36,439 nt of DNA, taken from positions 1 to 36,439 of the IMG/VR virus record IMGVR_UViG_3300025057_000024. One strand, given 5' to 3'. The stretch comes from a virus. The notes below the pieces were generated by a model, which worked only from the letters and a program-made list of their open reading frames with translations, made no database searches and had not been told where the DNA came from. This document shows positions 5,054 through 36,439 of this stretch, piece after piece. The position numbers were made by a program, and so were the translations under genes. Numbering within the stretch: the stretch's first letter is position 1; the number at the start of each line of letters is the position of its first letter.

Positions 5054-5312
5054 ATCAGTCAAACGATGTGTTGAGTATTGGGTGTCCGCTGTATTTGGTG
5101 TAGAGTGCTCAGTCGCATTTGCGATGCAAGAGAAGCCTGTGACCATCATGGCTCAAAATGAGATAGTCATCGGCGGCGAGCGCTTTCCAGCGATGGCGTT
5201 GATTAGCCTCAACAACCGAGTATTGGTTGACCCTGCGGACATGCACGATGCGATGAGGGACATTTACATGTACATGAAGAAGAGAGGAGAGGAGTATGAA
5301 AATTCATTTTGA
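5040..5312 (+). CDS. Hypothetical 90-aa protein
   Basis: 90 residues from the ATG at 5040, chosen because a strong GGAGG (5028-5032) sits about 7 bases upstream; a longer in-frame reading from 4989 overlaps the nuclease gene far more and lacks such a site. The protein has two Cys (10 and 20), a short hydrophobic stretch (VSAVFGVECSVAFAM) that is too polar at its ends to call a membrane helix, and a C-terminal helix rich in Met, Lys and Glu. No family is recognised. It overlaps both neighbours (14 bases upstream, 17 downstream), which points to tight coupling with the primase. Confidence 0.68.
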   Translation: MQAAESVKRCVEYWVSAVFGVECSVAFAMQEKPVTIMAQNEIVIGGERFPAMALISLNNRVLVDPADMHDAMRDIYMYMKKRGEEYENSF

Positions 5313-14949: not shown

Positions 14950-14964
14950 GCTATCACTCTCCAC
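14947..14964 (-). repeat. 18-base SD-stop-start junction, copy 2
   Basis: GTGGAGAGTGATAGCATG on the minus strand, identical to the copy at 15509-15526. It holds a ribosome site (GGAG and GTGAT around an extra A), the TGA of the upstream 185-aa gene, and the ATG of the hub gene. Confidence 0.85.
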
Positions 14965-15511
14965 CTATGTGCTCAGTGCCTCTTTCATCGATGGTTCTGC
15001 CCATATCTTGTATTCGTTGAAGTTCGTATTCACTGTAGCCTAAATCCCTATCCATGTAGTTCCTCAACCTGACATCCTCGGCAGGTAATTGGAACTGTTC
15101 CTGTCCCAACGCATCGGCTCTATACATAGTATGGGTATGCGGTGATTTGGGCATGACTGTCAAAAATTGAGGCGGTATGCCCTTAGGAAAAGCATGCGTA
15201 GAATGTCCCTCCGCTTCTCTTAGTTCAGGCTCTCCTACCCCTTCCCTTACACCGATGTAAGAGGGTGGACCTTGTTTCATTCGACGTCCATATCTCTCAG
15301 CGGCTGCTGGAATTTGGGTTACAAATGCACCATGCCCCCAGTCCGAACCATCATTTGGTAATACGCCCAACCTTCTTATTGAATCAACGTTGACTTCGGG
15401 AGTGCCGTGTAACCACTTGACAGGACCATAGGGGCTTGGTAAATCGGGGTGAAACTCACCAAGCGTCGTCTGACGCTTTAGTAATGTCCAAGCCTCATCC
15501 ATCGGCATCAT
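14954..15511 (-). CDS. Putative ADP-ribosyltransferase-fold protein, 185 aa
   Basis: 185 residues from the ATG at 15511, directly after the GGAGAGTGAT site; a longer reading from 15664 lies in the giant gene. Residues about 33-45 read VKWLHGTPEVNVD, then SIRRLGVLP, then GHGAFVTQIPAAAERYG. This order (L-H-G-T, helix with I-x-x-x-G, then G-x-F-x-T with A-x-x-Y) resembles the NAD-binding core of PARP-like/Tpt1-like ADP-ribosyltransferases. A later EQFQLPAED could provide the acidic third-strand residue. Tailed phages are known to carry ADP-ribosyltransferases in virions (T4 Alt), which gives a possible role on host entry. It could instead be an inactive structural domain with a similar pattern. 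Confidence 0.62.
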   Translation of the reverse strand: MMPMDEAWTLLKRQTTLGEFHPDLPSPYGPVKWLHGTPEVNVDSIRRLGVLPNDGSDWGHGAFVTQIPAAAERYGRRMKQGPPSYIGVREGVGEPELREAEGHSTHAFPKGIPPQFLTVMPKSPHTHTMYRADALGQEQFQLPAEDVRLRNYMDRDLGYSEYELQRIQDMGRTIDERGTEHIGGE

Positions 15512-15526
15512 GCTATCACTCTCCAC
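15509..15526 (-). repeat. 18-base SD-stop-start junction, copy 1
   Basis: GTGGAGAGTGATAGCATG on the minus strand, the same 18 bases as at 14947-14964. Here the TGA inside it ends the 5,251-residue gene and the ATG starts the ADP-ribosyltransferase-like gene. Confidence 0.85.
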
Positions 15527-18500
15527 TGTGGTCGCCTGTGTTAAAAGACGTATCGCCCGAACTACCCTTCGGATGCAGGGTTTGACTGTGACGTGGTTGG
15601 ACTGAGAAGTCAGACTCACCGTCCTCGGCCAACCGACGAGGCGCATCACTACGGAAGTGCTCAAGTGTGTTCTCGCTCATGACGATACGGGCGACTGGTT
15701 GTGTTACATCCGTCTTGGTATATCCTGTTACGTCGACGCCGAGAATCTTTGGACCGTCGCTTGTTGATGTGGTCACACTGCTTGCAGGCTTAATCGCATA
15801 CACTGGCTTGTACGGAGGCGACGATGGTGTGCCTGTACGGGCTGACGGTGCATCGCTGACATAGAAACCATACTTGCAACCACCTGTGGCTGCATAGAAG
15901 TTCGGGCTGGCCTGCGGTGTACTACCTGTCACAACAGGATTATGTCGGAACATTTGGATGTGTGACTTGTCAAGTGTCATGACTGGACGCAGTAAGAACT
16001 CGATTGTGCTGTCCGTGTTGTTCGTACGGTCAACTTTCGGCGAATGGTTCGCATCCTGATACGGGTTCGTCGAATCAGCCGCAGCAGTTGCGCCCCAGCC
16101 GAAGTCGGACAACACGCCTTCTCGCACCGACCAATCCATCACGTATGTACCGCCAAGCGCCCAAAATGCGTGAGCGTTCGATACACGCAGCACACCCTTG
16201 ACAGGTTGTCCACTCCAAGAGAGTGATGTCATGTCGAGATGTCCAAGCGTTTGGCTACCAATGTCGAGTGCCCCACGTAGCGTTGTACGTTGCCCAACCT
16301 CACGGTCAGTGTGCAGGCTGTGCGCTTCTGTGCTCATGATAACATACTCACGACTGATGCCGTCATTGAGTTCGCCAAGAGTATCGACGTCAAGCCCTGC
16401 ACGCACACCGTCACCGCCAACAGGCTCGGCCAACAGCGAGTTAGCAGTTACTGACTCAACTCCTTCGCTGACCATAGCGGTCGGCTTGAGCAATCCATCT
16501 TCATCAGCAAGGCCAAGTCGATTGCTGATACCACGTTCAACTTCGTCTGTTTGCAGCACGTCGTTTCGTGGACGAATCAATCCTTTTCCTACAGTTGGCT
16601 CAGCAGTGGGTTGTGAAACAACCAATCCTGTTGGCTCGACTGTTTCAGATACGTCGGCCAGTAGACTCTCGTTGAAGTGTGTAGGCCAACGAACACCACG
16701 TCCGTCACCACGGTCACCGACTCGCATAGCACTTGCAGGGTTAAACCAGTCCGCAGTGCCCATGTTTGAAGATGCGTTGTTGTCGTTGTTGGCGTTACCG
16801 CTATAGCGGTCAGTGCCATCGCCACCGAACAGGCTGTTCGCAGCAGGTCGGTGTGTGACGTTGGTGTCAGCGTAAGCATCCTCAGGGTCCCATGCAGGTC
16901 GAATACCAAACCCACGTACTGGGAATCGACGCACGTCTTCACCACGCGTGTTGCCCCACCAGTCAATCAAGTAGAAGCGATGAGCCTGAGCAAGTTCAGC
17001 AATGCCCAAGCCTGCGTGGTCGTTCGGGTACATGCGTCGAACAGATGAACTGTTGCGTACTGTACGTACAGGACAACCAAACGGCTGTGTCATCCGACGA
17101 CCGTCGCTGTATCGTACCTGTCGACCGATTTGGTCTTGATTGAGCATAGCACTGATTTGCGTCAGTCGCTCCAGTATACCAGTGTAAGTGGCAGGGAAGT
17201 CCGCATCGGATTGGTTGGTGTCAGCACCGACGTAATCCCATCCACTTGTTTTGTTGTCTTGTTGGACAAACGGTCCGTGGTAGTAGCCGAGCAACGCATT
17301 CGTTGTAGCCGTGCCTTCAATCCAACCTCGCACGTACGGAGACCACCGTGGTCGATTGTACGGCTGTCTTACCGAGAAGCGGTAACCGAAGCATGTATTA
17401 CGTGCATAATCTGAATCTGATGTCATTTCTGCATAGGTGCGTTCTTCGATGCCAGTATTGTCACGGAATCCAACGCAATCAATACCAAACAACTTACCGC
17501 CCCATCCGATGACAGTCTCAAGGAACCCATCGAGACGGCTTGAGCCTGCACCTCCACGAGAGCCACTCGGCCAATAGCCTGCAAAGTTGTATTTGTCTGA
17601 GCCGTCTGTACCGCCCTGATGGTCAAGTGTACCTGTTCCGTCGACCAATGCATCCATTTGTGCAGCGGTATATACCGTTCCGTCGTGGAAGTCAGCCGTA
17701 GCCCCATCGTTATCAGCATCGTGCGGAGGAGCGACCCACTTCATGCCAAGAGCAAACGGACCCTTTGACGCTGCATAGAAGAAGTCGTGGTAGTGAATTG
17801 TCTCAAAATGCTCAGGAATGTTGTTGAGCGATGCCTTGTTGACAGGTGAGTCGGCTGCACCCGTAGCGCTATAGAATGAGCGACTGCTATCATCTGAGTA
17901 GTATGTGTACGGGCGCCCAAGATTTGGATGCCACATACACAGGAATGCATCAGGTGTATGCAACGAGTTGGTATCTCGTGTACCTGCAAACGTCTGAGCA
18001 AGTGTACGTGTGGCAATACTCGATTCTGAGTTCTTGAAAACCTCACCTGCTTTTCTGTTGTCGTATGGTCCACTGAGTCGTAGGATTGTACCTGCGGTCA
18101 GGTTGGTAAAGAACAAATTGGCTGTCGATACTCCTTCAAACGTCGTAGCCGCAGCCAGTGTAGCGTGCGCCAACGTACCCGTGCGGTTCGTGTAGGTAGC
18201 CGTACGACGCTCGCCGTCAGCATCGATGTACTCCAGCACTTCGCCGTAGTACGGCTCCACTGGGAACAACTCATTGCTGTCGACTGTGACTGTCTGTGCA
18301 CTTGCATCAAACGAAATGACGACGCAACTTGGGTTAAGACTACGTGCTCGATAGTGCTCTCCGTAGATGTCAGGGTAGATAGTCGAGAAACCTGCAAGCG
18401 TAATCTGTGCACCAACCGCACCAAAGGCAGGTCGATTGAGTTGATAGTAGTGGTCAGGCGTGTGCCACTCAAGGAACTTGAACTCGTCAGCCGAACTGTT

Positions 18501-21500
18501 GCGTGCACCATCTTTGTGCAACTGCGCCCACCATGGCACAGTTGTTGTCATACCCGGCGTTGTTTGGATAAACATGTTCGGTCGGTATGGTAGGCTGCGA
18601 CGTGTGAACGCAGGTGATGCAGTTTCGTCAACACCAAGCGGGTTGTACAATCCCAGCGTAGGGATGTTGGTGAACTGGCTTCCCGCATCAGGTTCCAAAT
18701 CAAGAATAACTTCGTTGATGATAATCTCACAGCCCCGCACGTCAGCCATGGTTGCTTCGGCAAGGACGAGTGTCATACCACCAAGGCTTGACGTATCGTG
18801 TTCTATAGCGATAACTGTGTTGACTTGTTGCCCTGTCAGTTCTGTAACTTTGTCTCCTGATTCGGATGGGGCTTTGGTTGCATCACTGTGATTGAGATGG
18901 TAACCAGTAATCTGTTGTGAGAACACGTTTGGCTGAATGATAATTTGATACGCTCCGACTTCCATTGGGTCAGGGAAGTGGTTGTCAAGCGTGTACGTTC
19001 CCGCTGCTTCCAATACGACTGAATGTCCGCCTTGTGAGTTCGTCGTACCTGCTATTCCATTTGACGCAGCAATACCATAACCATCATACTTGACCTTCGT
19101 TTCGGTCATGAGCGTAAACGCACCACCATGAATATCAGATGGTGCAAATGCTGCCGTTGGTCCGCTGAACCATACAAGCGGGTCACGCCCCGGTGCGTTG
19201 TCGACTACTTCGCCATCGCCCAAGTAAGCATCTTCAAACGGCTTGTTTGATGCGCTTCGACAAGCAAGGTGTAAATCGTACATTCGCTGATAAGCAGGGT
19301 GAGCGTAATGACCGGGCAGTAGCGCCATTGTCGGTGTGACATAATGGTGACCCATACGAGGGATTGGCATAGGTGTCATCTTTGGACTGCTTAAGTGAAG
19401 ATACGGATTAGCGATGTCAGAAGTCATTGCTACCCAGTCGATGTTCGGCATGTCAGGGCTTGAGCCACTGTATTCGCTGTGGTCACGCAATCGGCGTGAT
19501 GCAAAGAAACGTGTGCTACCAGCAGGCATGTAGTACGAAGGCACGACTTTGAGTCCAGTCTTGCCTGTAACAAACGATACAAAATCAGGAGATACGACAA
19601 CGCCAGTGAATTTGTTTGTTGCTGTGTTTGTGTACGAAGCGATAACACCTTTGTTCGTTGTTGGGTCATACACTCGCAAGAACCAACGACCACCGCTTTG
19701 TTCACTGGTGACTTTCCACACAGCCGCCTCAGGTGTTGAACCTACGTCGGGGTCAGCAAAGGTAGCGACGTTGATTTCGTCACCTGACAGCGAAGTGAAA
19801 GACAACTCGTCGACATCGTCACGGTGCGTCATTGTCACACCCATTCGTGTAACGTGGAACTGTAGTGAACGGTCATGTGGCTCGTATGCTGTCTCAAGCG
19901 GATTGTTGTTTGTGTGGTCAGACCAACCCTCGGCAGAAGAGTCAGGCGAACCAAGCCGTGTTGCAGATACATCTGTACCGTCTTGACTTAGGTGTTCCCA
20001 TCCGTTGTTCTCCCACGTAGGCCAAGCACGTGGTCCGGGCTTTGCATTACTAAACATGTCTGTAATCGCCTGTTGAGGTTGTGATGGATGTTGCATACCT
20101 CCGCTACCCATCGTTTCGTTCTGATAGCCTTGTATGCGGTCAAAACTTGGCCGAACAATGATGTTGCCCGGAATGTCGTCAGGGTCGGGTAGTCGGATTT
20201 TCAAATTAGGCGAGATACCTGAGCCTGCAAGAGCAGGTGACAGTCCTTCGATTTGCCTGTCGCTCAGATGCCTGAAATCAAGAATGACTGTTCCAAGCGG
20301 ACTGCCGCCTGCGATTCTGTGCTCTTGTCCAGTGTCATCGACAACTTGTAGGCTTTGGAACTGAATCTCTTCGTTTGGTATGAGGAGTGCATCTTCAATT
20401 TTTGTGGCAAATTGATTTTGCTCAGCCAGTTGCGGGTGTGACAACTCCTGTGCCTGAATGATTGGGAACATTGCACCGTTCGTCGTTTCAAATGAAAATC
20501 GATTGTTTCCAAGTATCTTCTCGCCGACCTTCTTGTAGGCTCCGCCATCCTTTCTATAGACCCACGGTACCATACCAAGACCACGTGCGTTGACAGAAGG
20601 CATAGTGAGATTGCCTCCGTCCATGCGCTTCCATACAACGTGTTCTTCGTTGAAGTTGCGAGCAGGGTGTCGGTCGTCGTAGAACTTGTAAATACCAGTA
20701 GCAGTTGCACTGTACTCAGTCAGTGTCGAAACACCCTTGCAGGTAACTCCGTATGTGGCAGTGTTTTCGTGGAACTGGCTTGCAGTGACCTTTGATTCAT
20801 CCCAAAACAAATCGCCCGTAGGACTTTGGCAAGGGTCAGCACGTTCAATGGCACTGGTGCCAAGAGCGCTGTGCCAGTAGGTTTCTGTGCCGACAGAAGG
20901 GTATGAGGCTGTTTGTGGGTAAGAACTTACATCAGTCATCATCATCGCTTCGACATGAGGACCTGCGGTAGCAGGACCAACGTATCGGTCACGGTTGTGT
21001 ACCTTTGCAGTGTCCCACTGGGTTGTACCTGCGTTGGCAAGAGTACCGCTTCCTTTAAGGTCAAGCCAGTCACCTGCACACAAAATACCGTCACGGTCAG
21101 CCTTTGCAATCAAAGGCATCTCGCTTTCGTGCGTGATAGCAATCAAATGGCGCGAGGCTAAACCAATCTCACATGACTGCTCATATACGCTTGCAGGCAT
21201 CGAGTCAGCACCAACAGGCGAACTGCCCGACAAACAAGATTCGGCTGCTCCGTATGGATTGAATCCGAGGAAGGGGTGCCAAGCACCCTTACCAGCAGGG
21301 AACTTGGTACTGCCAATTTGAGTACCGTTGTATGAGTTAAGATACGAATATGCTTCACCCGACCAACCCACTGCTCCGATTGGTTTGGTTCGGTCAACGG
21401 CATCGACATAACCGCTGTAGTGAACCTGTGTCATGTGGTCACGGGCTTCGGAGGTGTTATTGTAACGGTGCGTACCTGATTTAGTCCACACGTAAATTTT

Positions 21501-24500
21501 GACCGAGCCGGGTGGCGATACGTTAAGGGGAATGGCGGGAATTGCAGCCTTTGTTGTTGGGTCAACAATGTTTGTTGTTCCCGAAAGATTACTGCCCAGC
21601 GTAAATACTGCACCTGCGTATGATGTATAAGAAGCAAATCCATTGATGGCAGCACCATCAGTAACACGTAGCCAGCCATACTGTGGTAGTGTCGTTGGTA
21701 TGGCAGCCGTAGCCTGTAACGTAGCGGCTGCACCACTCTCTTCTGTATATCCATTAGCGTCAAACGTTAATTCAACCCAACCGTATCGGTCTTGCTTTGA
21801 TGCAGTTTGGAATGAAGGAAGGAATGTTCCTCCAATGGCTTTTAGTGGGTCTGTTCCGGGGAATGTGTTGACGCCTGCTGCAACAATCGCTGCAAGTTCT
21901 TCTGCATTTTGTGCACGAGTAGCATCAATGACCACATAATCTGAATTGCTTGTCATGTCTGTTTCGCTTCCAAACGTACCTAAGTAAGCAGTTCCTAACA
22001 AAGACGACACACGGAATACTGTAGGGTTTTGTTGAGCATTTGAGCCATTTCCTGCTCGGTTGCCTGAAATGGGGTGCATTGGATTTCGCTCAATATGGTT
22101 GTCAAGGAAATGGCCGCCGGGGTGATAACCTCCATCCATGTGCCAAACACACGAGCGTGCTAATGTTGTAGCGAGACCTGACGCTCCCATATTTGTACCT
22201 GCATAGTTTGCAAACACGTACGACATTGGGTGAGCGTGAGCAGGTGGGTTTGTTGCAGTCATTTGCGTATCATAAAACAAACCTTGCCCTGCTGTCTGAG
22301 CAAACAATGTGCTGTTTGGTTGACCTTTCGATGGTTCCCAATTCATAACGTAGTTGTACCCTTGTACATTGCCTTTTTGATATTCAGCCGTAGGTGGTAA
22401 ATGAGCACTGAATCCGTTACGACTACTTCCGCCGTGTGCAATTTCGTTAGGTAAATTCTTGCCAGTCGGCACACCGCTGTAGCCGTTACCACCAGTAACT
22501 ATACTGGACAATTGCGGTTCGTGTGCCGCAAAATTATGAGGTACGCTTTGGCCGGGTCCAAAAACCATGTACGTTGTATGGTCGGTAGAATCACCTGTCG
22601 CACTGTATCGTGCATGCGGGTGTGAAAACCGAAGCACGATTGGGCTTGGTCGTTGACAGCGAACAGTGGTTGAACTGTCTGTATATGTCACACCAGTAGC
22701 AGTTTTGAATTTACCAGTGCCTGCATCCAAATCAAACGACAGCATGGCATCTTGGTTGAAGAATGGCATACTGTTTCGACCTTCGTGCTGGTCGAGATAC
22801 GGAGTTCCGGGGAACATTGCGAGCATTGCGTTTGCATCAAGTAAGGCGTATGAGCCTGCTATCTCACCGACGTTCTGTAATCCAGCCGAACCTGTCGGTC
22901 CGCCTGAGTATGGGTGCTCATAGAACTCACTGTAATCGTTTTGCGTCCCATCGTTGACGTCAAGTGTAACACCTGAGAATCCACCGCCAAAGTACAGTGG
23001 TACCCAGTGGTCAGGACTATCGTGTGCGCCTCGGAAGTACAGAAACGGTTCACCATGATGACTACCTGCTCGACGGACGCCTTCCGTTTCAGATGCATAT
23101 TTTATAGAGCCTTGTCTGACGAGGATGTCATTGTTGGAAATAGAAGAATCGAATTTTATTGTATCTTGTGTAAATTCAATTGTGGTTGTCGAATCTTCGC
23201 CACCGGATGCGCCTGCACGACTACTCACAACGCCTGACTCTTCGCTTCCAAGCCACACTGTGAATTTCTCACCCCACGAATTTTCAGTGCCACCTTGGTT
23301 GCTACAAGGCGTTGTGATGAGATAGATGTATTCTCCAGTAGGTACGTGAATGTGGCTGTGACTGATATAAGAACCGACGTTAATCATAGGGCTGTTGACG
23401 CACGGTATAACACGGTCGCCTTCTGTTCTATAGAATGTGTTGCCTCGTAGGTTTTGTTTCCAATCGATTGTATCAACGACATTGTTCGCACTATCGACAA
23501 GAACAGGCGTTGCCGTGTTTGCGTTTGTGCCCCGATACTTTGTAGTAATGTGAAGCACAGTTTTCGGAATATACCCAACATCGAGTCGTGTTCCATCGCC
23601 AAATTCATCAGATGCAAGACCACCCAAATGGTCGGTACCAGTTGCTTGAACAGATGCCCCTGCTTGGAATCCCCAATCTTTCTCACGGCTGACTTCAAAC
23701 AACTTACGCAGCGGAATAATTCGCTTGGATGCTGAATGTGATTTGACACGAATGGCTGTAGGAGATACACCCCATTCGCCAAGCGTACGACCGTCAGGTG
23801 CAAGCATGTGCGTGCAGTCGAACGTGGTTTTGCTGACATCCTCACTGTTCGGGTCATCCATGGTCATTGCAAACTCAACGGCAGCAGCCATAACCTCGTC
23901 TGTCAATACAGACGTAAACGACATACGTGGACAGATAATTCGTGTGACGCCTGAACCGTATGCTGATGTGTTGCCTTCGACATTGTACAGGTAGTGAACA
24001 CCCGATGCGCCTGCTTTGTCGTAGTGGGAGCGACTTTGGTAATACAGCGGTTCACCATTGTTGTTCCCTGTTTGTGCCGCTAAATCTGTAATGTCATTAA
24101 GTTGAATCATACCCTTTTCAGGGAATCCAAGATAACCCAAAATATCGGGATGATTTAACGTGCTACCTGTATCGTACGGGTCAACAAGTGTAATTTTAAG
24201 AGCATCAGCCCCGCTTACTGTAACGACTTGAACGGTTGCTGCTATACCAGTCGCAGGCGATGGGTAATTGTTCCATAGATTTCCTTTGAACTTCTTTTTC
24301 GTTCCGCCAGTGAACTCTCCACACACGTCACCTTCACCGAACATGTGCTTACCAATCGTGAATCCACCTTGCCCGACATCACGGTCATCGAAGTGAATGA
24401 CTACTTCGTCATCAAGCGTCGACGGTAACACAGTCAAATCGTTTGCAAACGACTGACCGTGTTGTCGATATACCATACGAATAGTGTGGTTCTTACCACG

Positions 24501-27500
24501 GTGGTCAACAAAACGAATGCCATACAATTGTCCATTGCCTATGTTGTCCGTACGAATCTCTTCATCCGGTATGTAACCGCCAGTTGATGTAGCATCGACT
24601 GTTCCGTGCTGAGCAAATGCAGCGACGTTGTTGCCATAGATGTGCTCAAATCGATTATCTTGCTGGTCACGACCAAAGCCCCAGTTACCTGCGTCGGGTG
24701 CCCAACCGGGTATGCCTGCCTGTGTCAAGCCGCCAAAGTTGATGCGAGCACGTGCAGGTGTACCTATACGCAGTCCATCGATGAGTTGAGAGGCAGGGCT
24801 TTTTGCCTCAAACGATTCGTCAATGATTGTGTTGGAGTTGCGACCTGATGCGATTTCGCTGGTGGATGAGGCCATGTTGCTGGATGTACCCGTGGTTTCA
24901 GGTCCGAACTCAAGGTTGTTTCTAAATGGCTCATCTACCTCATCGGGTGGAAGATACTCTTTGAGCGTCGTAATTGGCGCAAACGGACGCCCAAAGCGGT
25001 TGATTGGCATTGGTGCAGGGTGCATGTTTTCACCCGTCATCTCGTCAGGTTGACACCAATAGTTACGGAACCGACCACCATGACCAATCAAGAACTGCGG
25101 TCGATACGACAACTGACCACGTGCATTATCGAGCCATACACAGAAGTTACGACCTGACGCACCGGGTACTGTGCTGTGAATTACAATACTGAATCCGGGC
25201 TTGCCACCCGAATCAGCAACAACACGACCAAGGTGAGCACGAACATACCCCATGTGCGTACCACGGTCATGCGAAGCAAACGCTCGCTCCTTGTCCCAAA
25301 ACGGCGAAGGGTCGTGCGTGCTTCCCGTAGCAGCAAAGCCTGCGTTGAGATGAGCAGCAGTAGGGTCAGTGATGCCATTTGTCACGTCGGCCTGATTTGC
25401 TACGCGTGACAGACCGAATCGCTCACTCTCGCCAAAGTATTGGTCGGCTGGCTTTCGTGCATGAGTCCGCCCGTTTGGTGCGCCTGCTTGATTTATCAGA
25501 CGAACAATCTCACGAGCAGCGGCCTCGATGTTGCGAATGCCGTCTTTCATACCAATCTCGCCAAAATCAATCGTGAGGCGACGAACAAAGTCCATGTCAG
25601 ACCAGTGAGGCAAATGCTGCAAACGAGATTCTTCGTGCGTTGACAAATCGAGCGACGTCGTACGAATACCCTTGAGTGCTAAGAATACAGGAATACACCG
25701 TGTCCCATCAGGCGTGTCAAAGAATGTTGCAGTCTCGGTTGTAGTCGTGTTGATTTGCTTGTGCTCAAGGTTAGCGGCTTCATCCTTCGTTGACATCACT
25801 GCGGGATTTGTGCGTACTTGTATACCTGATAGGTCAGGGTCACTCGGTGTATGTCCATGATAACCAGTAGCATGTGTGCTCAAATCAACGTTTAGATTCC
25901 ATGTCGACTTGTGCGCCATGGCTGCTTCCATAAATTCAGACTGGGTAGTTGACGCAAGTGACTTGTTTTGCGAAGGGAACCCATTAGCAACGTCGAGTCC
26001 TGTACCCGCCCCAGTCGTTTGGTTGTTAATTGTGCCTGAGGACACTGGTTCGTTACCGATTGTTGCAGCCTGCGGACTTGACTGTACTTGCATCCACAGG
26101 TCTTGGAATGCGATGAACTCACGGTCGTGTGCCACGTCGTACAACAATACACGTGCATGCTCCTCAGTTGATTGGTAGGGGTCAATGTATGCAACGGTCG
26201 GAGCGTCCGCTGCACTCAATCCCAACGCCTCGTAATTCAATTCAACCGTTTTATTGACGTGCTGAACAAAGTTACGTGCAGTCTCTATGCACGAATTACC
26301 AATCAAGAAGTTCTCCATCGCTATGCTTTCACGTGGCGTCGTAGCAAAGTCACCTTCACCTTCCAAGAATCCACTCCATACCTCAGCCTCGTTGAGCGTT
26401 CCTCGACTCTTGCAGAACAGCCCTTCGATTGCGTGAGGGTTTGTGTAGTGCATGTTCATCCAAATCGTATCGCCTGCTCGCAGTCCACCGTTGCAGTACG
26501 GGTTCGCCCAAGCCGTGTTCAAGAATGCATTTTCCTTGACCTCAGGGTAAACGCCCGAAGGTGCATGCATATCCCACAGAATAATCTCGTCACCAACCTG
26601 AGGGTTGAACCCTGAATCAATGTTGTTGAGTGCAATTGCACCAGTTGATGTCGTGATGGTATCGTAGTGAGCAAATTTGTAGACTGTTCCATTCCACCAA
26701 GCAATTCTGTATTTGTAATTTGACGCATGTGCATTGCTTGTTGGAAAGTCACTAAAGTCTCTTAACGTCAACGTACTTGATAAATATGAATTGACTGTTG
26801 AACGAGCACGTTTGTTCTTGATGCGTTTAAGATGTGGATTTGCACGTGGACCTGCACGGAACTCAACAGCACTGACGTATTGCTTCATACCGTAATCTAC
26901 GTTTCCTCCCTGTGTCATGACATTCGCACGGTCGTAGTAATAAGGTCGGCGAGCCTCAAACCCTGCGCTATCCACTAACGGGTTGTCAGCAATTGACGGA
27001 TAATTCATGTCTTGGAAACCCGAACCCGGCATGATTGATACACCGACTGAGAGTTGTTGCAAGAAGTTCTTGCTGAACGCCCAGTTATCATCGGATGATG
27101 CGTTACCTGCAACTTCAAGATAGCCGCTTGTGTTGCGAGTGTCATATAACACCCACTCGCCTGACGGCAAGAATGCACGACGATAGCGCAGTGCACCGTC
27201 AATCGAGGCGACGGTGACAGGTGCAGCCGTAGCGATGGGGAAGACTTTGTAGTCTTGAACATAAATGCGTCGGTTGGTCGAGTCGTATGGTTGACTTACC
27301 ACAGTACCTCGGCGGTGTTCGTTCGTCTTGATTGATGTTGAAAACGCACTGTTGACTGTCGGGTCTTCGGGTGCAACTGACGGTGCTCGTCGTCCGACAG
27401 GATTAGGCGCCCATGTTGGCGCAGCATAGGTTGCATCGAGGTGCAACTTCATGCTGTTATCAGGTCCGGGGAAGATGCCTTCGTCTTCATTTTCAAAGAA

Positions 27501-30500
27501 GAAGTCGTCGAAGAGAGGTATCTCGACCATTGCACGCGTACTTGCGTATTGCGTGCCGAGTTGGTAATCGTGTTGTACTGTATCGAGTGTTTGGAACAGT
27601 CTGTCGTTGATGGTCGTCCCATCGTTACACATCGACCCTTCATTGAATTGGTCGTCGACTTCGACAACCGAGCCTGCTTTTATTCCGGTTGCTGTCACCC
27701 AAGCGCTGAAAGAATCGCTTTCAGACCCATCAGTAAGTACAAACTTACCACTACCAGTATGACCCGTTCCCGAAGAGAACGTGAACTTCGTTCCGTCCTT
27801 ACTTGTGTATTCGGCTGAGGCATACTTTTTCGCACTATCACCTGACTCTATAGACACTCCAAAGTATATTCGACCAACCTTCGGGAAGCAATACGTTCCC
27901 CAAGATGCAAGGGCTGACGATTTGTTGTTTAGGGGCACGACCGTAACTTGTGTGCTGGACGTTGCCGACACTCGGACTGAGCAGTCTCGGCGTGTCGACC
28001 AGCCAAGCCGAGCCGTCGGTGACGGGTTGTAGGTCGGCTTTGTGTTGATAGCACCTTGCCCTGCGCCTCCGAGCGTTACTGTAACGACTGGTGAACCGGG
28101 CATGGTTTCTTTGACGACGAACGAGTCAGGTGCTCCGTCACCCTTGACACTGACGGAATTGGCAGCCAAGTCAGCCCCAAGCCCATGTGCTCGGAGGACT
28201 GAGGTGCCTGCGTCACCATCAGACATTGTGAGCGCACGACCACGTCCCATGAGATAATGAATTTCAAACTGGTTGGCTCGCACATTGGTTCCTTGTTCGT
28301 TTGTGAACAACTTTGACAGTTGTGTGAATCGATTACGGTCAGAAGGCTGTACAACAAATTCGGTGTATATACCGTCGGTTGTGTGCGAAACGATGTCAAA
28401 TACTTCGTGCACTGCGCTGCTTTGAGCAGTTGTCCCGACGGCTCGACCCATTGGTTGGTAAAACAATTCCTCGTTGTCAACGACCGCTTGTGTGCTACCT
28501 GACGCCAATGTGATTGAGGTACTGGTCGAACTGTCCACAGTGCCAAGTTGAACACCATTAAGACTGAATAAACGTGTCCCTGCGCCGAAGAAATTAGTAG
28601 CATTGGCACCATCGACAGTAATCGTGGTCGTCCCTGCTGCGTGACCGCCGTTGTTATTGACGAAAACACCTGTGCTTTTTCGTGTAGCACCTTGCTTACC
28701 TTGTACAAGATAACCATCCGAGTCCACATCGAACTTGTCGTTGCCATTACTTGACGGTATGATGACGATTCGATTGAATACTGAATCACGGGCGCTGTTG
28801 CTTGCACGAGGAGAAAGTATGCGACGTGGATTCAGTTGCGGTGAATCAGAACTGTGAACTGGAAGATAGTTGTCGGGACACATTGTAAAGTCAAGGGCAC
28901 GCTCAGTCTGATGTCCTTCTTCATCATCGCCGTTCAGTTCTCCTTCTTTGTAAAGCATCTGACTCGTAGTAACACAGCGAAGCACACCACCTGCTGCATG
29001 CACAACCGCTTCGCCTGCTTCGACATCCGTGTGAATCAAATCAATGATGCGTGTCCCCGAAGTAACTTCCTCCCCAACATCAGGGTAAGTACTCTCCACG
29101 AGAAGTGCTCCGTGACTAAGATAGGAATTGACGACTGCGTTTGTTACAGCGGCGTCACGGAATGCTGTAGTAGTCGCTGATGAGAATGTGAGTGTGTTTG
29201 CTGAGTGACTGATTGTCGCAGTGACTGAACTTGTGCCTGCGACTACACCCCCTATGCTGATGAGGTCAGCAGTAATAGTATCAGTATCAGCACCAAACTG
29301 TTTGACAGAAGCAAACGTCAAAACAGTGTCACCACCACTGATGCCTGTGGTCAGTCGTGCAGTAGCAGCGTGCTTAATGCCACGCCCAGTGATGTCAACG
29401 GCGTTGTATTTGACTTGAACAAGCGCTGGGCGGCCATACTGCAACAACGAAGGTATTTCCAATACAGCAGTTCGGCTTTCAGAAGATGGTGTCATGTGAC
29501 GAATGTGTTCGTCGCTGTCTGTAGTGAGAGAGGTAAGAGAAGTCGATGTGGCTGAACGAAGTAAGAAGTTCCTTACATCTTCGACACCCAGCGCCAAAAG
29601 GTCACGGCTACTGTCTGTGATACCTGCCATACCGTTTTCGATGACTTGCTTGACTTCTGTTGTGAATGACGTAGATGCGACTGTAAACGGTCCTGTGACA
29701 TCGTAGAACGAGACGACTGAGTTGGCAGGTGCAGCATCACGCACGTTTGCATACTGTGGAGCAAAGGTGGCAGTCATAACCGATGCTGAGCCGTCGATGT
29801 TTTGCTCGACTTCTGATTCGATTGGGCGTGGTAGCATACCGATGTACGGATGGCTCTTGACATGATTGAGTATGTGTCGACCCGTGTGACCTGCTGTGAA
29901 TGCAGTGCCCATGTTTGTGGTCGCTGAGTATTTCATGTATGGGTCATCAGCAATAGCCATTCGTGTTGAAAACACAATGCCGTGATTTTCAAAGTCGCTT
30001 TCGTCAACAACAACTTGCCCTTGCCTGTTTGAAAACTGCGTACCTGTACCTACACCTTGGTTTGCAGTACCGCTGTCGACAAGGCAATCGCCTATGACAA
30101 TCACTGCATCGCTTGCACTGTGTGCCATCAACAAACCACGGCGCCCAGTAGAAGCGTTTGAATCAAAGTCAAGGTGTATGCTTTCGACTGTGATAGTACC
30201 TGCACTCGCATCTACGTTGGTCAAGCGTACACGCTCAGGCGCCTCACGATTAGGTACACCAGTCGCACGGTTGTAGCCGATAGGGTTGATGAGTAGGTTG
30301 AAAGATACTTGTGGAATGGTAATCGTGCTTTCTGAGTTGGCTGCATTCTTTGTCACAGTGTAATTACCTGCCGAATACGCAGCGGAAGTCAAGTCAAGCG
30401 AAGTAATTCCACTCTTACCTGTCAGTGTGTCGATGAGCGACTGGGCTTCTGTTGTTCCGATTGTAATCGTCGAGTTCGCCGATGTCGATGCTGAGAGTGA

Positions 30501-31271
30501 TGGTAGTGTTAGAATGGTTGATATTGGCTCAATCGGTTCCTCAAATCGCCAAAGGCCAAGAGTTGAGTCAGTCGATACTGGAGCATAAGGGTCGACGCTG
30601 CTGTCATGAGCACCACGTGCCCAGTGTATGGCTTCAATCGTCCCACGAAACTCACCACCCTGTCCACCGACAAACACTTGTGTTGGATAAATCACGAGTT
30701 CATGGTCAGATGTCAGTATTTTCGTAGCAACAACGTCACCGTTGATTCGCAAAGATAGGTGACGTTTGTTGAACATAACCGACACTTGCAGCAACTCTCG
30801 ATGTCCATCATGCACAGCAGCGTTGTGAGGCTTAAGTCCGTCGAGTGCGTCGTAAGCATCGTGTGCTACCAAAGCAGTTCGTGGGTAGGTGACACCATCG
30901 TAGTGTGACACCGTTCCGTCAGGCTTGGTTACGGCGGTTGCGCTGCTGAGTGTGAACGTGTTTTCGTTCCCTGTGTCTTTGCTTCGTAACTTTACTTGGA
31001 AACTTGCAGGTGCACTGCTTGACGGAGCGCCGACAACAAGTCGCATGACGTGTTCGTATTCCCATACAATACCTCCCGAATCAGGAATAACCCAAGACTC
31101 AAACGTAAATGAGTCAAGAACGTTCGGCATCGCCATATCGTTGACGGGTGTGCCTGATTGGAAGTTACCTGACGCCTGTGCAAATTTTTGCATTGGAATG
31201 ATGACAGCATCTGAAATACCGTTGAATCGCATGGCATATGTGGAGTCCGCTGATACAACCAAATCAAACAC
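15516..31271 (-). CDS. Giant LamG-headed tail protein, 5251 aa
   Basis: One uninterrupted frame of 5,251 residues (roughly 560 kDa by length). Residues about 1-245 look like a LamG/concanavalin-type jelly roll (DSFTFESWVIPDSGGIVWEY..., LQVSVMFNKRHLSLRINGDV, ending STLGLWRFEE). The rest is Gly/Thr/Ser/Asn-rich and mostly beta-like, with helical islands such as NIEAAAREIVRLINQ and NAEELAAIVAAGVN that resemble recurring pieces of phage baseplate proteins. I see no signal peptide, membrane helix, long coiled coil or known enzyme motif. The start is GTG 31271 or TTG 31262; AGGTG at good spacing favours the TTG. It lies between baseplate-like proteins and the hub, so a giant tail-tip or adhesin protein is more likely than a tape measure, but its role is unknown. 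Confidence 0.85.
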   Translation of the reverse strand: MFDLVVSADSTYAMRFNGISDAVIIPMQKFAQASGNFQSGTPVNDMAMPNVLDSFTFESWVIPDSGGIVWEYEHVMRLVVGAPSSSAPASFQVKLRSKDTGNENTFTLSSATAVTKPDGTVSHYDGVTYPRTALVAHDAYDALDGLKPHNAAVHDGHRELLQVSVMFNKRHLSLRINGDVVATKILTSDHELVIYPTQVFVGGQGGEFRGTIEAIHWARGAHDSSVDPYAPVSTDSTLGLWRFEEPIEPISTILTLPSLSASTSANSTITIGTTEAQSLIDTLTGKSGITSLDLTSAAYSAGNYTVTKNAANSESTITIPQVSFNLLINPIGYNRATGVPNREAPERVRLTNVDASAGTITVESIHLDFDSNASTGRRGLLMAHSASDAVIVIGDCLVDSGTANQGVGTGTQFSNRQGQVVVDESDFENHGIVFSTRMAIADDPYMKYSATTNMGTAFTAGHTGRHILNHVKSHPYIGMLPRPIESEVEQNIDGSASVMTATFAPQYANVRDAAPANSVVSFYDVTGPFTVASTSFTTEVKQVIENGMAGITDSSRDLLALGVEDVRNFLLRSATSTSLTSLTTDSDEHIRHMTPSSESRTAVLEIPSLLQYGRPALVQVKYNAVDITGRGIKHAATARLTTGISGGDTVLTFASVKQFGADTDTITADLISIGGVVAGTSSVTATISHSANTLTFSSATTTAFRDAAVTNAVVNSYLSHGALLVESTYPDVGEEVTSGTRIIDLIHTDVEAGEAVVHAAGGVLRCVTTSQMLYKEGELNGDDEEGHQTERALDFTMCPDNYLPVHSSDSPQLNPRRILSPRASNSARDSVFNRIVIIPSSNGNDKFDVDSDGYLVQGKQGATRKSTGVFVNNNGGHAAGTTTITVDGANATNFFGAGTRLFSLNGVQLGTVDSSTSTSITLASGSTQAVVDNEELFYQPMGRAVGTTAQSSAVHEVFDIVSHTTDGIYTEFVVQPSDRNRFTQLSKLFTNEQGTNVRANQFEIHYLMGRGRALTMSDGDAGTSVLRAHGLGADLAANSVSVKGDGAPDSFVVKETMPGSPVVTVTLGGAGQGAINTKPTYNPSPTARLGWSTRRDCSVRVSATSSTQVTVVPLNNKSSALASWGTYCFPKVGRIYFGVSIESGDSAKKYASAEYTSKDGTKFTFSSGTGHTGSGKFVLTDGSESDSFSAWVTATGIKAGSVVEVDDQFNEGSMCNDGTTINDRLFQTLDTVQHDYQLGTQYASTRAMVEIPLFDDFFFENEDEGIFPGPDNSMKLHLDATYAAPTWAPNPVGRRAPSVAPEDPTVNSAFSTSIKTNEHRRGTVVSQPYDSTNRRIYVQDYKVFPIATAAPVTVASIDGALRYRRAFLPSGEWVLYDTRNTSGYLEVAGNASSDDNWAFSKNFLQQLSVGVSIMPGSGFQDMNYPSIADNPLVDSAGFEARRPYYYDRANVMTQGGNVDYGMKQYVSAVEFRAGPRANPHLKRIKNKRARSTVNSYLSSTLTLRDFSDFPTSNAHASNYKYRIAWWNGTVYKFAHYDTITTSTGAIALNNIDSGFNPQVGDEIILWDMHAPSGVYPEVKENAFLNTAWANPYCNGGLRAGDTIWMNMHYTNPHAIEGLFCKSRGTLNEAEVWSGFLEGEGDFATTPRESIAMENFLIGNSCIETARNFVQHVNKTVELNYEALGLSAADAPTVAYIDPYQSTEEHARVLLYDVAHDREFIAFQDLWMQVQSSPQAATIGNEPVSSGTINNQTTGAGTGLDVANGFPSQNKSLASTTQSEFMEAAMAHKSTWNLNVDLSTHATGYHGHTPSDPDLSGIQVRTNPAVMSTKDEAANLEHKQINTTTTETATFFDTPDGTRCIPVFLALKGIRTTSLDLSTHEESRLQHLPHWSDMDFVRRLTIDFGEIGMKDGIRNIEAAAREIVRLINQAGAPNGRTHARKPADQYFGESERFGLSRVANQADVTNGITDPTAAHLNAGFAATGSTHDPSPFWDKERAFASHDRGTHMGYVRAHLGRVVADSGGKPGFSIVIHSTVPGASGRNFCVWLDNARGQLSYRPQFLIGHGGRFRNYWCQPDEMTGENMHPAPMPINRFGRPFAPITTLKEYLPPDEVDEPFRNNLEFGPETTGTSSNMASSTSEIASGRNSNTIIDESFEAKSPASQLIDGLRIGTPARARINFGGLTQAGIPGWAPDAGNWGFGRDQQDNRFEHIYGNNVAAFAQHGTVDATSTGGYIPDEEIRTDNIGNGQLYGIRFVDHRGKNHTIRMVYRQHGQSFANDLTVLPSTLDDEVVIHFDDRDVGQGGFTIGKHMFGEGDVCGEFTGGTKKKFKGNLWNNYPSPATGIAATVQVVTVSGADALKITLVDPYDTGSTLNHPDILGYLGFPEKGMIQLNDITDLAAQTGNNNGEPLYYQSRSHYDKAGASGVHYLYNVEGNTSAYGSGVTRIICPRMSFTSVLTDEVMAAAVEFAMTMDDPNSEDVSKTTFDCTHMLAPDGRTLGEWGVSPTAIRVKSHSASKRIIPLRKLFEVSREKDWGFQAGASVQATGTDHLGGLASDEFGDGTRLDVGYIPKTVLHITTKYRGTNANTATPVLVDSANNVVDTIDWKQNLRGNTFYRTEGDRVIPCVNSPMINVGSYISHSHIHVPTGEYIYLITTPCSNQGGTENSWGEKFTVWLGSEESGVVSSRAGASGGEDSTTTIEFTQDTIKFDSSISNNDILVRQGSIKYASETEGVRRAGSHHGEPFLYFRGAHDSPDHWVPLYFGGGFSGVTLDVNDGTQNDYSEFYEHPYSGGPTGSAGLQNVGEIAGSYALLDANAMLAMFPGTPYLDQHEGRNSMPFFNQDAMLSFDLDAGTGKFKTATGVTYTDSSTTVRCQRPSPIVLRFSHPHARYSATGDSTDHTTYMVFGPGQSVPHNFAAHEPQLSSIVTGGNGYSGVPTGKNLPNEIAHGGSSRNGFSAHLPPTAEYQKGNVQGYNYVMNWEPSKGQPNSTLFAQTAGQGLFYDTQMTATNPPAHAHPMSYVFANYAGTNMGASGLATTLARSCVWHMDGGYHPGGHFLDNHIERNPMHPISGNRAGNGSNAQQNPTVFRVSSLLGTAYLGTFGSETDMTSNSDYVVIDATRAQNAEELAAIVAAGVNTFPGTDPLKAIGGTFLPSFQTASKQDRYGWVELTFDANGYTEESGAAATLQATAAIPTTLPQYGWLRVTDGAAINGFASYTSYAGAVFTLGSNLSGTTNIVDPTTKAAIPAIPLNVSPPGSVKIYVWTKSGTHRYNNTSEARDHMTQVHYSGYVDAVDRTKPIGAVGWSGEAYSYLNSYNGTQIGSTKFPAGKGAWHPFLGFNPYGAAESCLSGSSPVGADSMPASVYEQSCEIGLASRHLIAITHESEMPLIAKADRDGILCAGDWLDLKGSGTLANAGTTQWDTAKVHNRDRYVGPATAGPHVEAMMMTDVSSYPQTASYPSVGTETYWHSALGTSAIERADPCQSPTGDLFWDESKVTASQFHENTATYGVTCKGVSTLTEYSATATGIYKFYDDRHPARNFNEEHVVWKRMDGGNLTMPSVNARGLGMVPWVYRKDGGAYKKVGEKILGNNRFSFETTNGAMFPIIQAQELSHPQLAEQNQFATKIEDALLIPNEEIQFQSLQVVDDTGQEHRIAGGSPLGTVILDFRHLSDRQIEGLSPALAGSGISPNLKIRLPDPDDIPGNIIVRPSFDRIQGYQNETMGSGGMQHPSQPQQAITDMFSNAKPGPRAWPTWENNGWEHLSQDGTDVSATRLGSPDSSAEGWSDHTNNNPLETAYEPHDRSLQFHVTRMGVTMTHRDDVDELSFTSLSGDEINVATFADPDVGSTPEAAVWKVTSEQSGGRWFLRVYDPTTNKGVIASYTNTATNKFTGVVVSPDFVSFVTGKTGLKVVPSYYMPAGSTRFFASRRLRDHSEYSGSSPDMPNIDWVAMTSDIANPYLHLSSPKMTPMPIPRMGHHYVTPTMALLPGHYAHPAYQRMYDLHLACRSASNKPFEDAYLGDGEVVDNAPGRDPLVWFSGPTAAFAPSDIHGGAFTLMTETKVKYDGYGIAASNGIAGTTNSQGGHSVVLEAAGTYTLDNHFPDPMEVGAYQIIIQPNVFSQQITGYHLNHSDATKAPSESGDKVTELTGQQVNTVIAIEHDTSSLGGMTLVLAEATMADVRGCEIIINEVILDLEPDAGSQFTNIPTLGLYNPLGVDETASPAFTRRSLPYRPNMFIQTTPGMTTTVPWWAQLHKDGARNSSADEFKFLEWHTPDHYYQLNRPAFGAVGAQITLAGFSTIYPDIYGEHYRARSLNPSCVVISFDASAQTVTVDSNELFPVEPYYGEVLEYIDADGERRTATYTNRTGTLAHATLAAATTFEGVSTANLFFTNLTAGTILRLSGPYDNRKAGEVFKNSESSIATRTLAQTFAGTRDTNSLHTPDAFLCMWHPNLGRPYTYYSDDSSRSFYSATGAADSPVNKASLNNIPEHFETIHYHDFFYAASKGPFALGMKWVAPPHDADNDGATADFHDGTVYTAAQMDALVDGTGTLDHQGGTDGSDKYNFAGYWPSGSRGGAGSSRLDGFLETVIGWGGKLFGIDCVGFRDNTGIEERTYAEMTSDSDYARNTCFGYRFSVRQPYNRPRWSPYVRGWIEGTATTNALLGYYHGPFVQQDNKTSGWDYVGADTNQSDADFPATYTGILERLTQISAMLNQDQIGRQVRYSDGRRMTQPFGCPVRTVRNSSSVRRMYPNDHAGLGIAELAQAHRFYLIDWWGNTRGEDVRRFPVRGFGIRPAWDPEDAYADTNVTHRPAANSLFGGDGTDRYSGNANNDNNASSNMGTADWFNPASAMRVGDRGDGRGVRWPTHFNESLLADVSETVEPTGLVVSQPTAEPTVGKGLIRPRNDVLQTDEVERGISNRLGLADEDGLLKPTAMVSEGVESVTANSLLAEPVGGDGVRAGLDVDTLGELNDGISREYVIMSTEAHSLHTDREVGQRTTLRGALDIGSQTLGHLDMTSLSWSGQPVKGVLRVSNAHAFWALGGTYVMDWSVREGVLSDFGWGATAAADSTNPYQDANHSPKVDRTNNTDSTIEFLLRPVMTLDKSHIQMFRHNPVVTGSTPQASPNFYAATGGCKYGFYVSDAPSARTGTPSSPPYKPVYAIKPASSVTTSTSDGPKILGVDVTGYTKTDVTQPVARIVMSENTLEHFRSDAPRRLAEDGESDFSVQPRHSQTLHPKGSSGDTSFNTGDHSGE

Positions 31272-34911: not shown

Positions 34912-35178
34912 TCACTCCAAAGGCGGGATGATGTCATATCCCAAGTAAATGCTGTCACGCTGCTCAGGGTTGTCATGCTGTTGCATGACGGTAGCCCATG
35001 TGAGGAGTTGGATTGCGTCTTGCGGGTCAAGTTGTCTCACCTTATTCAGTGTCATGGAGTAGTGGGTCATCAATAGATATTCTGCTGCTTGTTGTTGTAT
35101 GCGAGGCCAGTCATCGGGTTTACGTCCATTGACGTAGTCCCTTATTCGTCCGACCTCGCTCGTTGAAAATTTAGCCAA
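34912..35178 (-). CDS. Tail-assembly chaperone second frame (GT-like)
   Basis: The open frame encodes 88 residues if translation begins at TTG 35178, which has GAGGTG five bases upstream. It is also in the -1 frame relative to the preceding gene, overlapping it by 37 bases across a canonical AAATTTT heptamer, so it may be made as a fusion of 81 residues of the first protein plus 84 from here. The protein is helical (QQQAAEYLLMTHYSMTLNKV; QDAIQLLTWATVMQQH), ending in IPPLE. The position between tail tube and tape-measure-like gene is that of the frameshifted G/GT chaperones of long-tailed phages. Which route is used cannot be told from sequence alone. Confidence 0.75.
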   Translation of the reverse strand: MAKFSTSEVGRIRDYVNGRKPDDWPRIQQQAAEYLLMTHYSMTLNKVRQLDPQDAIQLLTWATVMQQHDNPEQRDSIYLGYDIIPPLE

Positions 35179-35408
35179 CTCACCACCTCGGATGGACTTG
35201 GTAGCATCTTCGCTATCTCAGCGCCATCCTCGGCTGACAGTTGGTTGAAATCTATAGAAGGTGTTGCTGTGACCCATCGACGGAATGCTTCTTGCCAGTA
35301 ATCCTCAAGTTGCGGGTCACTACTCAGGAAAATAGGTGACAACGATTGCACGTCAAAAAACGTGGGTTTGGCTACCTCTATTGTCACTTCGCATCCGTCA
35401 ATTTCCAT
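35142..35408 (-). CDS. Tail-assembly chaperone first frame (G-like)
   Basis: 88 residues from the ATG at 35408, chosen because GAGAGTGAT lies 2 bases upstream; an earlier in-frame start would overlap the acidic protein more. It begins with a short beta hairpin (MEIDGCEVTIEVAKPTFFDV), then a mostly helical body (LEDYWQEAFRRWV; AEDGAEIAKML). The slippery AAATTTT is read in frame as A-AAT-TTT at codons 80-81, eight codons before the stop. Small helical proteins here, followed by a -1 frame, match tail-assembly chaperones that load the tape measure. It overlaps the acidic gene by 11 bases. Confidence 0.75.
   Translation of the reverse strand: MEIDGCEVTIEVAKPTFFDVQSLSPIFLSSDPQLEDYWQEAFRRWVTATPSIDFNQLSAEDGAEIAKMLPSPSEVVSWLNFQRARSDE
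35166..35172 (-). other. Candidate -1 ribosomal frameshift heptamer AAATTTT
   Basis: Read on the minus strand in the frame of the upstream chaperone, this is A AAT TTT, which fits the X-XXY-YYZ rule: after slipping back one base the two tRNAs meet AAA and TTT. The -1 frame then stays open to 34912. I did not evaluate a downstream RNA structure. Confidence 0.65.
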
Positions 35409-35640
35409 TATCACTCTCTTCGGTGTTGTCATCCAACTCACTCACTGTTTCAGTTGAAGCAGCCTCTTCTGAGGGGGCTTCTTGCTCAGCCTCATGTGGC
35501 TCGCTGGGAGCGACATGTTCGCCGAACGGGGCGTCTGAGACTTTACCAGCCTCAGGATTGAATACTTCTTCTTCTTCCTCTTCGACAACGACAGCAATCT
35601 CGTTGCGAGGATGAAGCGCTATAGCATGTTTCATTGGCAT
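35398..35640 (-). CDS. Acidic low-complexity small protein, 80 aa
   Basis: 80 residues from the ATG at 35640, with GAGTGAT upstream; the same TGA ends the tail-tube gene. After a short N-terminal strand (HAIALHPRNEIAVVV) comes six Glu in a row and then a long stretch rich in Glu, Ser, Ala and Pro with almost no Lys or Arg, ending in EESDNGN. This strongly acidic, probably disordered tail could bind a basic partner such as a tail or capsid surface, or DNA-binding proteins. No family is recognised. It lies between the tail tube and the chaperone genes. Confidence 0.7.
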   Translation of the reverse strand: MPMKHAIALHPRNEIAVVVEEEEEEVFNPEAGKVSDAPFGEHVAPSEPHEAEQEAPSEEAASTETVSELDDNTEESDNGN

Positions 35641-35649
35641 GGCTATCAC

Positions 35650-36439
35650 TCAGCAGTGGAAAAGGGTGTCGGTGCTAATCACCTTGATGTTCTTGGGATG
35701 AATCATAATCGAGTGCAGTAGCCCTTTGTCGTCAGGTACTGGGATTGGAGCGTCTGTAATTACGTAGTCGTCACAGATGATACGCATCTGTTGTTGGCTG
35801 CCTGTCGAGCCAGTGGATGGCTTTGTAAACACCATTTCAATGATGTTGTCTGTTGAGCCAGCCGTACCTGATACCTCACGGTGCGTGCGAAGTTCGTGGA
35901 AAAGAAGCGAATCGCGAATGATGACATCCATCTCCAGTTCAAACTCTTCTCGACCTTCACGGATAATCGATGCGTTGCGTGTGCCACCATAGGGGACTTG
36001 TTTGAGCGAACGATTCGTGCCATCGGTGGTAACTGATTCGGCTACAGGTGTTCCGCCCATGGTGTGGAATATCTCGACCCCTGTCTTGCCACGCAACTCA
36101 AACGTTGAGATAAAGCCGATGTCCTGACCGAAGGCTGTGATTGTGCCGTTGTAAAACATGAATGGCTTCTCGGAACCTGACGCTATGCCTGCTTCCTTTC
36201 GACCCGCTGCATCAGTCGCTGTGTTTTGGAACAAGCGGTGAGCACGGTATCTGTCACCTGCATTAGATGACTCAAGACGACCAGTGTCCGTATAACATGA
36301 AAGCGCATCGAAGATACATCTGTACTTGACCTCAGCATCAACAGTTGCATTCAGTTCCCACTCAACAACTTTGCATCCACGGAATATACGCGTGAGTTGC
36401 TTGCTGTCTGTACTTGAACCGGGTGCGTTGCTGTTCTCG
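35650..36439 (-). CDS. Tail-tube-like protein, cut by window edge
   Basis: The reading frame runs without a stop from 35650 to the right edge (about 262 codons seen), so the 5' end lies outside; an apparent TTG start at 36234 is internal. The visible protein has repeated beta strands (RIFRGCKVVEWELNATVDAE..., PFMFYNGTITAFGQDIGFIS, EEFELEMDVIIRDSLLFHEL, RIICDDYVITDAPIPV) and a strand near the end (MIHPKNIKVISTDT), consistent with a tail-tube fold. Being first before the acidic protein and chaperones supports this. The length is larger than simple tubes (about 150-200), so it may carry an extra domain. The call is by pattern and order only. Confidence 0.72.
   Translation of the reverse strand, partial: ENSNAPGSSTDSKQLTRIFRGCKVVEWELNATVDAEVKYRCIFDALSCYTDTGRLESSNAGDRYRAHRLFQNTATDAAGRKEAGIASGSEKPFMFYNGTITAFGQDIGFISTFELRGKTGVEIFHTMGGTPVAESVTTDGTNRSLKQVPYGGTRNASIIREGREEFELEMDVIIRDSLLFHELRTHREVSGTAGSTDNIIEMVFTKPSTGSTGSQQQMRIICDDYVITDAPIPVPDDKGLLHSIMIHPKNIKVISTDTLFHC

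Follow-up and report, generated by a model that had tools for sequence, protein, structure and literature searches.

The stretch of DNA analysed here (the window, 36,439 bases) is an entire IMG/VR record; since the record is classed as linear, the window is probably a fragment. It belongs to a tailed virus, probably one of ocean archaea (a magrovirus), and holds a run of tail genes on the minus strand (Table 1). Most of this run is a single giant open reading frame, whose GTG start shares 8 nt with the stop of the upstream gene. In relatives the genes follow one another as presumed major tail protein (~680 aa), small genes in the position of assembly chaperones, tape measure, Dit-like protein or proteins, giant, hub-like protein, a 110-aa protein and a fibre-like protein. 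The giant thus has Dit-like genes on one side and a hub-like gene on the other, in agreement with its earlier placement in the tail module.

Table 1. Features of the tail region in the window (residue numbers refer to the giant protein)
Feature	Position	Strand	Details
Giant tail-region protein	15516-31271	-	One ORF of 5,251 codons without internal stop; 5,251 aa, ~0.56 MDa
N-terminal LamG / concanavalin-A-like domain	30537-31271	-	Residues ~1-245; match of orthologue L131
Module M1	28458-28673	-	Residues 867-938, small; recurs elsewhere in the giant and in L117's homologue of the major tail protein
Internal duplicate, copy A	26559-27092	-	Residues ~1394-1571; hhalign against copy B
Insertion hot spot 1	26532-26702	-	Residues 1524-1580; relatives carry M6 and other inserts
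Insertion hot spot 2	21579-21611	-	Residues 3221-3231; M2 and M3 in relatives
Internal duplicate, copy B	18057-18635	-	Residues ~4213-4405; beta-rich domain
Insertion hot spot 3	17595-17723	-	Residues 4517-4559; relatives carry propeller-like M5, M1 or M2
Insertion hot spot 4	16074-16091	-	Residues 5061-5066; LamG-like M4 in six relatives, M6 in one
Best-modelled C-terminal beta domain	15675-16307	-	Residues ~4989-5199; AF2, region of lowest dN/dS
Fibre-like protein, 573 aa	11493-13214	-	PHROG tail fibre protein, E=3.5e-6
Hub-like tail protein, 471 aa	13549-14964	-	Position and weak PHROG matches of family members
Dit-like / connector-like protein, 476 aa	31264-32694	-	Role by position only
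Dit-like / connector-like protein, 579 aa	32704-34443	-	Role by position only, after the tape measure
Short tape-measure protein, 159 aa	34436-34915	-	Helical N-terminus and conserved C-terminal motif GVTDRSDKRALAREI
C-terminal part of major-tail-protein homologue, 83-aa acidic gene, gene in tail-assembly-chaperone position	35142-36438	-	Synteny with complete relatives

We gathered relatives of the giant with its two halves and a profile of a conserved segment as queries, obtaining up to 350 related stretches from the viral collection. Among 60 distinct IMG/VR ORFs covered at both ends, 58 run uninterrupted over 5,100-5,885 aa, and the aligned orthologues show 43-93% identity to the window protein and are collinear with it. 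The frame is disrupted in L053 (12598-12621) and L047 (2250-6431), through sequencing error or real breakage. Comparison with three sisters gave dN/dS values of 0.065-0.069 for the gene and 0.01-0.12 for each 500-aa bin, lowest at the C-terminus. A fourth sister, more distant than these, gave 0.063; here the value of one bin could not be computed. Across 30 diverse sequences (<85% pairwise identity), 783 positions are invariant. They occur along nearly the entire protein, and W, G, P, R and H are over-represented among them, a bias that a folded scaffold would be expected to show. Together, the intact frame in separate contigs, the collinear orthologues and the low dN/dS show that the gene is real, single and strongly constrained; the first-pass annotation had described one stop-free frame of 5,251 residues. 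We found no DNA-level tandem repeats in the gene, no relatives among annotated phages by tblastn with both halves and the most conserved 651 aa, and none in cellular genomes by profile pattern.

The same annotation had noted that the gene fills 43% of the window. This is literally true, though of a fragment: in a 103-kb relative (L022), probably complete because its ends overlap (645 bases at 96%), the giant measures 5,307 aa and takes up ~15% of the genome. In the complete relative, the portal, prohead protease (Peptidase_S78) and major head protein lie upstream of the tail genes in the same direction. The gene content described for Magrovirales (PMC10768690, PMC12999244, PMC5332604) was recovered, with a family B polymerase, a chaperonin and a primase, and with replication and virion genes oppositely oriented; the replication proteins were named by reading their sequences rather than by profile search. 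The earlier assignment to the magroviruses therefore agrees with gene content. Furthermore, selection by PolB alone gave 12 contigs (≥75 kb), and each of them also carries the giant.

The neighbours of the giant can be assigned with differing support. The two Dit-like proteins align as adjacent paralogues, and a profile search with the longer one gave no match; in distant relatives such as L131 the Dit-like gene appears to be single-copy. Members of the hub-like family weakly match PHROG virion structural and baseplate wedge families. The major-tail-protein homologue (~677 aa in L083) owes its role to position and had no family match; for neither this protein nor the hub-like protein did we find relatives in phages. 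Identity to middle-distance relatives is 57-63% for the giant, 41-44% for the hub-like, 31-48% for the Dit-like and 43-57% for the fibre protein, with the chaperonin at 60-75%. Comparison of two giant segments with the Dit-like and hub-like proteins gave no match and hence no sign that the giant arose as a duplicate of either; this included a profile comparison of its C-terminal segment with the hub-like protein of the same virus. Between the giant and the hub lies a small gene (14954-15511) that by eye resembles ADP-ribosyltransferase/KptA-type proteins (LHGTPEVNVDSIRRLGVLP...). Its listed ORF begins upstream at 15664, but translation more likely starts at an ATG near 15511. It has matches in close sisters, a weak one in L065, none in most relatives and none in Pfam.

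The tape measure is a separate, short protein. Orthologues were present in 15 of 15 large genomes tested, and members of the family match PHROG tape-measure families down to 2e-23. Longer orthologues with long hydrophobic segments occur in L131 (567 aa), L121 (566 aa) and L134 (517 aa), and those of L131 and L121 carry a C-terminal motif of the AEGGIVTSPTLALVGE.GPEAV type; the tape measure of the window clade consists of the short helical part and the last conserved motif only. Its length is 136-163 aa in 35 relatives of the window clade and 517-567 aa in distant magrovirus-like genomes. In the available part of the HFTV1 description, a tape measure of 341 aa spans 11 tube rings in a tail of 560 Å (PMC12494034). 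By simple ratio to HFTV1, the 159-aa protein would perhaps specify about five rings, or a tail of 26 nm. Shrunken and classic tape measures thus predict strongly different tail lengths within one group. We also looked for an alternative, long helical tape measure in a complete relative, where the only other very long ORF (1,803 aa) belongs to the head module. This ORF (L314:6389-11800), between portal and protease, has a DNA-ligase-like domain (Pfam 2.5e-4, under the cut-off), an odd location for a ligase.

The LamG-like start of the giant, first proposed from the window sequence, is borne out by an orthologue: the L131 protein matches Laminin_G_3 at E=5.3e-10 and 40.1 bits, against a Pfam curated cut-off of 27.6, and its domain aligns to the window N-terminus without large gaps. 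The window's own copy scores under the Pfam reporting limit. Beyond this domain, which is only moderately variable among relatives, the giant had no match in Pfam, PHROGs or PDB sequences, and profiles from PDB sequences gave no credible match for the four segments searched. The protein is acidic and no TM-like segment was found in it. The Pfam and PHROG searches are consistent with the earlier statement that it holds no recognised enzyme, signal or coiled coil. A beta-rich domain occurs twice within the chain (hhalign probability 80%, E=1.4e-5); self-comparison covered 520 of 780 pairs, so that further internal repeats may be missed.

We modelled two segments with AF2. Residues 1230-2340 reached a pLDDT of 62.6 and residues 4130-5251 one of 50.2, and the confident parts are mostly beta, including a predicted barrel at residues 1489-1574 (pLDDT ~90). 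This agrees with the description of the giant as beta-rich and is the opposite of a helical tape measure throughout. For both segments the best-ranked PDB entry in Foldseek was a siphophage (Chi) tail-tip chain, 8vjh_D, at E 0.03-0.06; as this falls short of significance, we take it as a hint. No PDB match reached E<=0.001 for either segment, and the remaining ones were generic beta barrels, such as that of F1-ATPase. In BFVD the middle segment matched A0A1B1IU10, an unnamed viral protein represented in pieces, at 38% identity over ~1,090 columns, and weak matches to tail-fibre proteins were also obtained. The A0A1B1IU10 match indicates that a relative of the same giant is already in UniProt; we found no description of its family.

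Variation among relatives has a distinct pattern. In the alignment of 30 sequences most of it comes from insertions, which fall at a restricted number of discrete positions; the main ones follow residues 922, 1169, 1491-1580, 1689, 3222-3231, 4021, 4517-4559, 5066 and 5163. The inserts include a second LamG-like domain (M4; Pfam E=0.003, under the cut-off), a propeller-like module (M5) assigned by eye and with no Pfam match, and four small modules that resemble beta domains by composition. A given module can occupy different sites of the giant, and these modules also occur outside it: in orthologues of the Dit-like proteins, in L117's presumed major tail protein and in downstream proteins; the LamG-like module, for instance, is present in the Dit-like orthologues of L098, L125 and L136. 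Separate 306-aa proteins (L018:21740-22660 and L006:19742-20662) carry M5, which elsewhere is inserted at residue 4517 of the giant. Gain or loss of modules appears to be recent, as sister L022 (91% identical) has an additional copy of M1 at 5163 that is absent from the window protein. The inserted modules are probably glycan-binding.

Several known systems resemble this arrangement in part. In the 'evolved Dit' of Gram-positive siphophages, carbohydrate-binding modules sit in peripheral loops, and similar modules decorate the major tail protein (PMC7291167). Like these, the giant is a conserved protein with inserted modules shared with other tail proteins. Unlike them, it has no detectable homology to the Dit belt or galectin domains in PDB, Pfam or PHROG searches; evolved Dits carry one or two modules, whereas the giant has 5,251 aa, many insertion sites and an archaeal virus lineage. 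It would work like an evolved Dit, without belonging to that family by any of our homology tests. HFTV1 has a siphovirus-type tail on an archaeal virus, and the available part of its description (PMC12494034) gives tape measure, connector and hub as separate proteins, the hub having a C-terminal domain predicted to bind carbohydrate. The window tail module likewise has separate tape-measure, connector-like and hub-like genes; it differs in its shorter tape measure and in the giant, a scaffold of this kind being absent from that part of the HFTV1 description. The giant had no sequence match to solved chains.

Further comparisons concern tail-tip proteins and the LamG domain. Judging from their size, we tentatively take the Chi and JBD30 chains (PDB 8vjh, 8rk3; 271-272 aa) to be upper baseplate or gpL-like proteins. 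Compared with hubs (gp27 / gpJ / Tal), giant segments gave no PDB profile match and weak Foldseek matches to tail-tip chains; the long alignments with the beta domains of these two phages (PMC11445458) have large rmsd. Laminin_G_3 of magroviruses has been reported as an auxiliary metabolic gene (PMC10160649). The N-terminal domain of the giant is of the same family and lies within a conserved structural protein, which speaks against a metabolic role here.

We propose, with a probability of roughly 0.6, that the giant is a virion protein that serves as scaffold for the tip (baseplate) of a short, non-contractile tail. It would be a constant frame presenting exchangeable, probably glycan-binding attachment modules at the tail tip; its location in the virion, its copy number and its glycan binding are putative. 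The proposal draws on the constant frame, the exchangeable modules of binding type and the place among tail-tip genes, and is supported by the conserved intact length, invariant residues, purifying selection, higher identity than the neighbouring tail genes, separate tape measure, gene order, shared modules, LamG domain, internal duplication and presence in all the PolB-selected contigs, with the non-significant top rank of 8vjh_D as a further hint. Against it, our searches related its sequence to no hub, Dit or PDB protein, and AF2 confidence was low. The first-pass annotation had suggested a tail-tip adhesin or long fibre, which fits poorly in that form. The variation lies in plug-in modules, and the scaffold, its C-terminus above all, shows higher conservation than the flanking hub-like and fibre genes, whereas a receptor-binding fibre would evolve fast; a better fit is therefore a conserved scaffold of the tip on which adhesin modules are mounted.

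The main rival is nonetheless that the giant is a tail fibre, side or central, of great length: beta domains strung one after another, with receptor binding along it or at its end. The beta-rich, multi-domain chain with LamG at one end, its position near the baseplate, the lectin-like modules and the weak BFVD matches to tail fibres would all suit such a fibre. We consider it unlikely. A fibre tends to be conserved at its anchor and variable at its tip, whereas in the giant the C-terminus ranks among the regions under strongest constraint and the N-terminal LamG varies only moderately, so that the expected variable tip is not seen; the average conservation of the giant also exceeds that of the hub-like protein, DNA-level tandem repeats are absent and a separate fibre-like gene exists. 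More improbable is a polyprotein cleaved into several tail proteins. Invariant residues run along almost the entire giant and split forms occur only as frame breaks in 2 of 60 relatives, against a case made by its length, its several apparently separate domains and the Peptidase_S78 serine protease of the complete relative, which is of head-maturation type and lies in the head module.

We attach still less weight to an unrecognised surface-degrading enzyme (a glycan or S-layer depolymerase) that would help the virus reach the membrane. Invariant His, Trp, Asp and Arg residues occur in clusters, for example at residues 2003-2042 and 2064-2103, and might be read in this way, but Pfam, PHROG and PDB searches gave no enzyme match, and most of the invariant residues are G, P, W or R, as is typical of a structural role. 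The tape measure is often the largest tail gene, as the giant is here; nevertheless, a role as tape measure or ejected internal protein is contradicted by the tape-measure orthologue nearby and by a chain that is beta-rich where modelled and has no TM-like segments, and is highly improbable, so that the earlier rejection of this role stands. An assembly join or missed frameshift, conceivable for a single metagenome contig, had been named among the findings that would refute the first-pass reading; the same intact frame in dozens of separate contigs, with low dN/dS throughout, refutes it for practical purposes.

The tip scaffold would be an addition to the usual tip, since a separate hub-like gene exists. 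More tentatively, and short of an even chance, it may represent an undescribed tail architecture, in which the giant is a near-complete tip organiser with many 'sockets' for lectin-like modules and the tip rivals the short tube in mass. The published magrovirus descriptions that we compared give tail genes and Laminin_G_3 and mention no giant tail protein; the founding paper and the 2025 Poseidoniales virus paper lay outside this comparison, and priority in describing the protein is uncertain.

Magroviruses are reported to be among the most abundant marine viruses. To our knowledge none has been cultured, and we know of no account of host recognition by them. A giant scaffold of this kind, conserved and fitted with plug-in binding modules, would provide a concrete, testable host-recognition device for these viruses. 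The giant would also serve as a marker gene for the group and would give archaeal viruses a counterpart of the decorated siphophage tail tips. Furthermore, our data suggest that at least part of the magrovirus LamG genes that have been described as auxiliary metabolic genes are virion components.
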